From Chitinivorax sp. B (GTDB taxonomy: Bacteria; Pseudomonadota; Gammaproteobacteria; Burkholderiales; SCOH01): a DNA stretch of 64,000 nt. The position numbers and the translations under genes are program-made. Under the pieces are notes generated by a model that worked only from the letters and a program-made list of their open reading frames with translations, ran no database searches and was not told the origin of the DNA. The number at the start of each line of letters is the position of its first letter. The first letter of the stretch is position 1. Location: NCBI RefSeq assembly GCF_005503445.1, contig NZ_SCOH01000021.1, forward strand, positions 1-64,000, written 5' to 3'. Below are positions 59,943 to 61,350 of this stretch, in pieces.

Positions 59943-60194
59943 ATGTCAAAAGAAGAAACGATTCAATTTGAAGGTGTCGTTACCGAAGTATTGCCCGAAT
60001 CTCGTTACCGCGTTACTTTAAGCAATGGCGTCAAAATTTTGGCCTATGGTTCAGGTAAGATGAAGATGCACCGCATCAAAGTATTGATGGGTGACCGGGT
60101 TACCGTTGAGATGTCGCCCTATGATCTGACCAAAGGACGGATTACCTTCCGCCATTTGGGTGCCCCTCGCAACGATGCAACGCAAACGCGTTAA
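59943..60194 (+). CDS. Translation initiation factor IF-1 paralogue
   Basis: An 83-residue S1/OB-fold protein. The body follows IF-1 closely: [41 protein letters not shown] (in parts), [16 protein letters not shown]. It has an extra tail of about 11 residues ([11 protein letters not shown]) beyond the usual 72. Many betaproteobacteria have two infA genes, one inside the ribosomal protein region and one elsewhere; this looks like the second kind. The true infA is probably outside the window. A long untranslated leader precedes it. ATG 59943 with weak AGGAT upstream. Confidence 0.88.
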
Positions 60195-60288: not shown

Positions 60289-60471
60289 ATGAAAGTAAAA
60301 GAACTCCAGCCTGGAGACCATGTTGTAGATCAATACAATGGTGCGCCGGTTGATTTCGAAGTTGTATCCGTTCAGCCGCTAGGCTATCTGATTGAAGTCA
60401 CATTCCGCTCGGTGCTGGGTATGGCATCGGCGGCTTATCACGGTAATGCCTATATCAACGCGCAGCGTTGA
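60289..60471 (+). CDS. Hypothetical 60-aa protein
   Basis: Starts MKVKELQPGDHVVDQYNGAP and continues VDFEVVSVQPLGYLIEVTF. Predicted all-beta and soluble, without Cys, signal peptide or membrane helix. It could be a small SH3- or S1-like barrel, which is only an impression. ATG 60289 is chosen over ATG 60271 because AAAGGAA lies seven bases upstream of it. It follows the IF-1 paralogue by 94 bp in the same direction. I do not recognise the family. Confidence 0.6.
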   Translation: MKVKELQPGDHVVDQYNGAPVDFEVVSVQPLGYLIEVTFRSVLGMASAAYHGNAYINAQR

Positions 60472-60496
60472 TTCCTCGGCCATCTCCGTTAGCTGA

Positions 60497-60571
60497 TCCC
60501 CATTTGGGAATGATGCCCGCCTCAGAATATCCCCTGCACTAAAGCTTCGGGATGATGAACGGCGGGCTGTT
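60497..60571 (+). terminator. Structured RNA / terminator-like element
   Basis: A small hairpin TCCC/GGGA near 60497-60509, then an outer stem GCCCGCC (60515-60521) / GGCGGGC (60561-60567) enclosing an inner stem ATCCC (60529-60533) / GGGAT (60549-60553). Only a short T-run follows (TGTTT). It lies between the 60-aa gene and the next promoter, so it is probably the terminator of the former, though larger than usual. Confidence 0.5.
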
Positions 60572-60584
60572 TGGCTTTCCCGGT

Positions 60585-60612
60585 TTGGTTTGTATGCCAT
60601 TCGACGTACAAT
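60585..60612 (+). promoter_or_regulatory. Probable promoter of the small redox cluster
   Basis: TTGGTT (60585-60590), 16-bp spacer, TACAAT (60607-60612). Transcription would start around 60619, which is the A of an in-frame ATG, giving a leaderless mRNA. Confidence 0.55.
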
Positions 60613-60618
60613 ATGAGC

Positions 60619-60810
60619 ATGAGCACTCCTCCCCCTGCACCAGATAAACGTGATCCCGAGCAAATGATCGGGCCTGGTGGTTTGAGCATGCGACAAATTC
60701 ATGTGGCTACCTTAAAAAGCCTTGAGCTTGAACGACAAGCCCCTGCTCGAAAGCAAGCTGACTTGTCTTGGTGGCGTCGATTGCTGAAGAAGGTGTTTGG
60801 TCGTGGCTGA
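60619..60810 (+). CDS. Small basic protein, 63 aa, possibly leaderless
   Basis: Starts MSTPPPAPDKRDPEQMIGPG, then LSMRQIHVATLKSLELERQ and a C-terminal basic, Trp-containing tail WWRRLLKKVFGRG that could be an amphipathic helix. No family recognised. No ribosome site lies before ATG 60619 or ATG 60613. The preceding TACAAT box ends at 60612, so the transcript should begin at about the start codon. The last eight bases overlap the next gene, which implies coupled translation. Confidence 0.6.
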   Translation: MSTPPPAPDKRDPEQMIGPGGLSMRQIHVATLKSLELERQAPARKQADLSWWRRLLKKVFGRG

Positions 60811-61048
60811 CCACTTGGTCATTGACCGCTGCATCTGTAAGCGCCGATCCTTCGCTGAGTTGCTGGTGATGGCCCAAGACTGGGATCATGATGTGGACTG
60901 TGTGATGCTGGTATCTGGGGCTGGTTTGCAATGTGGTCGATGCCGTCCCTGGCTCGCTCAGGCTATTCGTGGACAAAGTCCAGCGATTGTGGTCGATTTG
61001 GGGGAAGTGGCTGATGCAGATGTGCTTGCCATTCATTTTTCAACTTGA
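60803..61048 (+). CDS. Bfd-like [2Fe-2S] protein
   Basis: An 81-residue protein from GTG 60803. Cysteines at 10 and 12 (RCICKRRSF) and 44 and 47 (LQCGRCRPW) reproduce the CxC-x31-CxxC layout of bacterioferritin-associated ferredoxin, with the same 32-residue step from the second to the third Cys as in E. coli Bfd. The rest is divergent and there is no bacterioferritin gene nearby, so it is Bfd-like rather than Bfd. It should bind a [2Fe-2S] cluster. GTG is chosen because GAAGAAGG lies nine bases upstream. It overlaps the preceding gene by 8 bp. Confidence 0.72.
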   Translation: MADHLVIDRCICKRRSFAELLVMAQDWDHDVDCVMLVSGAGLQCGRCRPWLAQAIRGQSPAIVVDLGEVADADVLAIHFST

Positions 61049-61062
61049 CTCAGTTCGCTAAG

Positions 61063-61350
61063 ATGAAACCCATTATTCAAATTGAATACTGTACTCAGTG
61101 TCACTGGCTGTTACGTGCTGCCTGGATGGCGCAGGAGCTGTTGACCACCTTTGAAGCGGAGTTGGGGGGCGTTACTTTAACGCCGGGAACTGGTGGTATT
61201 TTCAGAATCACTATTGGTGATGTGGAGCTTTGGGATAGGAAAGTCCAACAAAGTTTCCCGGATATCAGGCAGTTGAAACAGTGTGTACGTGATCTGGTCG
61301 CGCCAGACCGGCCGTTGGGCCATATCGATCGCGTTGCACAAGCAGACTGA
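61063..61350 (+). CDS. SelW/Rdx-type selenoprotein-like redox protein
   Basis: A 95-residue thioredoxin-fold protein of the SelT/SelW/SelH (Rdx) family. The redox motif CTQC (10-13) uses Cys, not selenocysteine. LLRAAWMAQELLTTF, GTGGIFRI and FPDIRQLKQCVRDLV are family hallmarks. It probably acts as a small thiol oxidoreductase; partners are unknown. Start ATG 61063 is 14 bp after the Bfd-like gene's stop; an upstream TTG at 61045 would overlap that stop. Last gene of the small redox cluster. Confidence 0.85.
   Translation: MKPIIQIEYCTQCHWLLRAAWMAQELLTTFEAELGGVTLTPGTGGIFRITIGDVELWDRKVQQSFPDIRQLKQCVRDLVAPDRPLGHIDRVAQAD

Follow-up and report, generated by a model that had tools for sequence, protein, structure and literature searches.

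Does the gene for a small conserved protein near the end of the window (the whole 64,000-nucleotide stretch of DNA analysed here) begin its message at its own start codon? An initial annotation had read the region in front of this gene, called gene 1 below, as a promoter placed so close to an ATG that the transcript would be leaderless. Judging from the sequence and its comparison with related genomes, we consider gene 1 to be probably a leaderless gene. The features of the locus are listed in Table 1.

Table 1. Features of the gene 1 locus, in positions of the window
Feature	Positions	Strand	Basis or remark
Hairpin between the 60-residue gene and the promoter, possibly a terminator	60515..60567	+	Seven-base perfect arms
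Proposed -35 hexamer TTGGTT	60585..60590	+	Sequence read; 3/6 match to TTGACA
Proposed -10 hexamer TACAAT	60607..60612	+	5/6 matches; first base 12 before ATG 60619
Predicted transcription start, A of the start codon (C at -1)	60619	+	Inferred from six-base discriminator
Gene 1, conserved 63-residue protein	60619..60810	+	Homologs; no Pfam or NCBIfam model
Gene 2, Bfd-like [2Fe-2S]	60803..61048	+	Overlaps gene 1 end; GTG start assumed, TTG 60797 possible; orthologs beside gene 1 in G001, G003
Gene 3, Rdx/SelW-family protein	61063..61350	+	PF10262; ortholog at the same place in G001, G003

The start codon of gene 1 and the element in front of it

The arrangement described initially is present as described. 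TTGGTT and TACAAT are separated by a spacer of 16 bases, and the latter hexamer ends at 60612, with the A of ATG 60619 seven bases further on. Another ATG, at 60613, abuts TACAAT, six bases before ATG 60619, and would fall in the discriminator. The sequence ATGAGC is duplicated in tandem at this point (60613-60618 and 60619-60624), its first copy forming the discriminator. From ATG 60619 the frame is open to TGA 60808-60810, which gives the 63 residues that had been claimed, and conserved homologs of the protein were found. Homology supports ATG 60619 as the predicted start, located 17 residues before a GPGG motif as in the orthologs of G001, a congener, and G003, a member of another genus.

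The statement that no ribosome site precedes either ATG also held, the duplex energy with the anti-Shine-Dalgarno (anti-SD) sequence being -0.7 kcal/mol at -20 to -4 in both cases and, for ATG 60619, +0.5 at -14 to -4. Zheng et al. (2011, PMC3160421) recognize leaderless genes in bacteria by a TANNNT hexamer about 12 bp upstream of the start. At 60619 we observed a hexamer of this type, TACAAT, together with the absence of an SD site; the first T of the TA-led genes in that report lies about 12 bp before the start, and that of gene 1 exactly 12.

The proposed -35 fared less well. TTGGTT had been presented as a meaningful element, and its three matches out of six are no better than chance. A promoter scan with a cut-off of 9/12 did not list the TTGGTT/TACAAT pair, which scores 8/12. 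Within the window, 107 of the 149 hexamers matching a -10 at 5/6 positions have a -35 with at least 3/6 matches within 15-19 bases. At this frequency (0.84 per kb per strand), a promoter match taken by itself lacks significance and constitutes no evidence. The leaderless claim is carried by the -10 and its placement, not by the -35.

The median anti-SD duplex energy of 277 sampled genes from the window genome (G000) is -6.5, compared with -0.7 here, a contrast that is flattered, as the sampled starts were picked partly by SD strength and SD-less starts look rarer than they are. In a second tally, made with other settings, a 5/6 -10 hexamer with its first base at -11 to -13 was found in 3 of 301 sampled G000 genes, and in none of the 301 in combination with a missing SD; the same placement occurred in 0 of 150 sampled genes of G003. 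With every in-frame candidate start close to the beginning of an ORF admitted, 277 ORFs yielded 11 with a 5/6 -10 hexamer ending 5-7 bases upstream, and the duplex energy was above -3 for 7 of the 11 (only one of the seven is an ATG, and it is not the first start of its ORF), so that lookalike pairs of -10 and start do arise by chance. A marked enrichment of -10 hexamers at about -12 was not found in sampled G000 (2 of 267 first ATGs, 3 of 301 chosen starts), the background in the start tallies of this genome being means of about 1 per position. In this respect the sampled genome differs from the TA-led genes, which are treated as a genome-wide statistical class in PMC3160421.

A conserved gene cluster and a small-protein family

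By its conservation, the ORF at 60619-60810 is a real gene, belonging to a betaproteobacterial family that has no name and is marked by a GPGG motif and a C-terminal Trp. Counting the window's own genome each time, 10 of 100 relatives gave a match (one of them, L010, lacks the motif and was dropped), as did 16 of 300 genomes of the order, where the matches in G018 (E 5e-5) and G065 (2e-4) are weak and partial. In a named collection, 110 of 135 pattern-matched stretches matched and 80 were kept. The 80 listed records are all betaproteobacterial by name and come from Paraburkholderia, Caballeronia, Burkholderia, Nitrosospira, Nitrosovibrio, and metagenome bins. Across 22 aligned sequences, P13, GPGG, R25, H28, and S34 do not vary, while D38, W52, and R54 are nearly invariant.

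What the analysis defines here is a conserved small-protein family for which no Pfam or NCBIfam model matched. The sole Pfam match of the 63-residue protein, to RsiG (PF22802), scored 15.3 bits and was below the cut-off of 27; at E values up to 0.5, one of nine members of the family matched this model. A PDB sequence search gave one match, at E 0.53, and no name was gained from it. An AlphaFold2 model, for which the input alignment A3 held 22 of 33 diverse sequences, places helices at residues 24-40 and 42-60 (mean pLDDT 78.5, pTM 0.43), and most of the first 23 residues are without predicted secondary structure.

Gene 1 is present in three of the five genomes examined from the window's taxonomic family, and in all three we observed a Bfd-like and then an Rdx/SelW gene downstream, gene 2 starting at or just before the stop codon of gene 1. 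Gene 3 scores 99.4 bits against PF10262 (cut-off 22.6). Scores of gene 2 against Fer2_BFD (PF04324, cut-off 26) are 16.4 bits in the window, 21.0 in G001, and 26.7 in G003, and only the G003 copy passes the cut-off. Across 79 loci, here and elsewhere, the gene upstream is divergent and aroC-like in 20 and ABC-transporter-like in 22, according to our reading of the sequences. The gene upstream of gene 1 in G003 is divergent. In the window, a 60-residue protein is encoded on the same strand at 60289-60471, upstream of the hairpin; it is 86% identical in G001, where gene order is kept, and no Pfam match above cut-off was found for it in G000 (scanned without its first Met) or G001. Rfam at gathering thresholds returned only tmRNA for the whole window. 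On the minus strand (60621-60619), GGAGGAG lies a few bases before the ATG of a short open frame, probably a chance product of the proline codons of gene 1.

The start region in orthologs and homologous loci

In G003 the homologous start reads TAAAAT-ACGGTC-ATG, with the same 12 bases from the first base of the -10 to the ATG that the window shows. An in-frame stop that leaves only three codons before the ATG precludes any upstream start in this genome. In G000, G001, and G003 alike, the protein begins at the same distance from GPGG. An AGAGG lies 15 bases before the G003 ATG, with a duplex energy of -7.0 when spacing is ignored, -3.2 at -18 to -5, and +2.4 at -14 to -4.

G001 is syntenic with the window. 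The intergenic DNA has diverged, yet CGTACAAT, which holds the -10 word, is common to both, and the two promoter regions share no longer word; among 5000 shuffles, 200 share a word of at least 8 and 6 share one containing a -10. One of three MAFFT modes paired the CGTACAAT words of G000 and G001, and the region came out differently in the alignments of the remaining two. The -10 of G001 is separated from the ATG by 47 bases, and GAGGG stands before the ATG, which amounts to a leader about 40 bases long that includes an SD. The window arrangement is kept in G003 and not in G001, and it is thus not fixed, the congener having a leader with SD. The same promoter appears to serve a leadered gene in G001 and a leaderless gene in the window species.

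For a wider survey we took loci L001-L106 with the motif, after excluding the motif-less L010 (E 0.0092) beforehand, and removed identical copies, which left 88 distinct loci, 87 of them with a usable start (L054 is without one). A general leaderless arrangement was not found across the 87. A 5/6 hexamer starting at -12 is present at three of them, namely the window, G003, and Nitrosovibrio L070 (AATAAT). TAACAT, TAGCAT, or TACCAT starts at -24 to -49 at 23 loci, and a TCAAGAT block lies within -50 to -21 at 40; these candidate blocks, if promoters, would give leaders of about 10-40 bases. SD strength is mixed, the energy with spacing ignored being at or below -4 kcal/mol at 43 loci and above -3 at 28. 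With three hexamers at -12 among 87 loci, many upstream candidates, and this range of SD strength, leaderlessness would therefore be at most a property of this branch and not of the gene family.

Explanations of the locus and known leaderless genes

In the mechanism that we favor, a sigma-70-type promoter with TACAAT as its -10 would direct initiation to A60619 or to a position a few bases from it. The resulting message would have neither leader nor SD, and its 5'-terminal AUG would be bound by the 70S ribosome with initiator tRNA, a known leaderless route, while overlap or reinitiation would allow the downstream Bfd-like and Rdx/SelW genes to be translated from that mRNA. We infer the position of the transcription start, the leaderless initiation, and the co-transcription. 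The classical example of a leaderless message is that of lambda cI from PRM, whose first base is the A of AUG; cI is a phage repressor unrelated to gene 1, and what the two would have in common is the leaderless start at this A. The initial claim of a leaderless transcript gains support because the spacing in G003 is an identical 12 bases, the -10 word is common to the congener, and the ORF is conserved; it does not extend to the congener, whose copy is leadered with an SD. Counting against the leaderless reading are this leadered copy in G001, the two MAFFT modes that did not pair the CGTACAAT words, the AGAGG of G003, the unenriched -12 position, the hairpin, and the proportion of 3 in 87 loci.

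It is possible, if rather unlikely, that transcription comes from further upstream, either from a promoter near 60480 or by read-through from 60289-60471. The leader would then hold the hairpin, translation would begin without an SD at ATG 60619, and TACAAT would be incidental. Such an origin agrees with the position of the 60-residue gene on the same strand in an order kept in G001, with a hairpin that is conserved in G001 and could be part of a leader, and with the weak SDs (above -3) at 28 of the 87 loci, as SD-poor starts are common in the family. However, there is no 9-of-12 promoter on the plus strand from 60472 to 60600, the hairpin may terminate the upstream transcript, and the divergent upstream gene of G003 makes read-through impossible there, yet the -10 spacing is the same. 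G001 has identical hairpin arms at the corresponding position, with the rest of the spacer diverged. The hairpin is more stable than shuffled sequences (z -4.3 and -3.6, with its borders chosen beforehand by the analyst); the whole intergenic stretch is not more stable than its shuffles (z -0.40). No strong T-tract follows the hairpin, which could belong to a longer leader or equally end the transcript of the upstream gene. We rejected it as a dispersed repeat, the strict pattern being found once in G000, twice in G001 (one orthologous), and once in G003, elsewhere in that genome; a second GATGCCCGCCTCA of G000 does not match the strict pattern.

An ordinary leadered mRNA, translated from TTG 60571 into a 79-residue protein with GGCGGGC as the SD, can hardly be credited at all. 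Its frame is open and the duplex energy before TTG 60571 is -5.5, but the in-frame stop of G003, four codons before the ATG, makes the extension impossible there, and an ATG exactly 17 residues ahead of GPGG is common to G000, G001, and G003. We rejected TTG 60571 as the start on account of the stop codon and the common start position, and GGCGGGC is the 3' arm of the hairpin. A role of the region mainly as a repressor site, with the imperfect palindrome TTGTATG-N8-CGTACAA at 60590-60611 as an operator over the -10, would be compatible with a leaderless start and seems to us very improbable. The palindrome has seven-base arms with one mismatch and does overlap the -10, but the pattern occurs at one place in G000 and is absent from G001 and G003, and a reversed control is as frequent in G000. 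As the operator of a regulon it was discarded on the same count in G000 and on control patterns that are as frequent.

Leaderless genes as such are already documented in betaproteobacteria, and gene 1 is ordinary in kind. Their description as uncommon in proteobacteria was overstated, as they form an established betaproteobacterial minority (PMC3160421, PMC7563307, PMC4603805). They are reported as predicted in 9 of 71 betaproteobacterial genomes, with a mean of 6.8% (Zheng et al. 2011, PMC3160421). In Cupriavidus metallidurans CH34, 4.67% of primary transcription start sites (TSSs) give leaders of <5 nt (PMC7563307), and in Burkholderia cenocepacia J2315, the primary TSS coincides exactly with the annotated start in 72 genes and falls within 10 nt of it in another 42, with tRNAs making up 24 of these transcripts (PMC4603805). 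Both organisms, whose leaderless mRNAs were found by dRNA-seq, are Betaproteobacteria like the host of gene 1 (PMC4603805, PMC7563307), and the leaderless genes of B. cenocepacia are described as having a TA-rich promoter motif directly upstream instead of an SD, as does gene 1 (PMC4603805). The genes of these two sets have mapped 5' ends and are enriched in transcriptional regulators, whereas gene 1 encodes a small unnamed protein, heads a redox-type cluster, and has a start predicted from sequence. If transcription starts at 60619, gene 1 and its G001 copy form a natural leaderless/leadered pair behind a shared -10, a pair that could measure what a leader adds in a betaproteobacterium.

Among the three genomes compared, the leaderless arrangement is present only in the two with a second infA. 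There are two copies in G000 (one at 59943-60194), two in G003 (on contigs other than that of gene 1), and one in G001. Leaderless messages are described in a review as bound mostly by 70S ribosomes and stimulated by IF1 and IF2, with a dual and often inhibitory effect of IF3 (PMC9031893). That the ortholog switches between a leaderless form (G000, G003) and an SD-led form (G001) behind a shared -10, with an IF1 paralog that may favor leaderless initiation, is a conjecture to which we give very little credence, and with three genomes the coincidence may well be chance. The infA copy of the window lies about 0.4 kb upstream of gene 1 and is absent from the syntenic place in G001.
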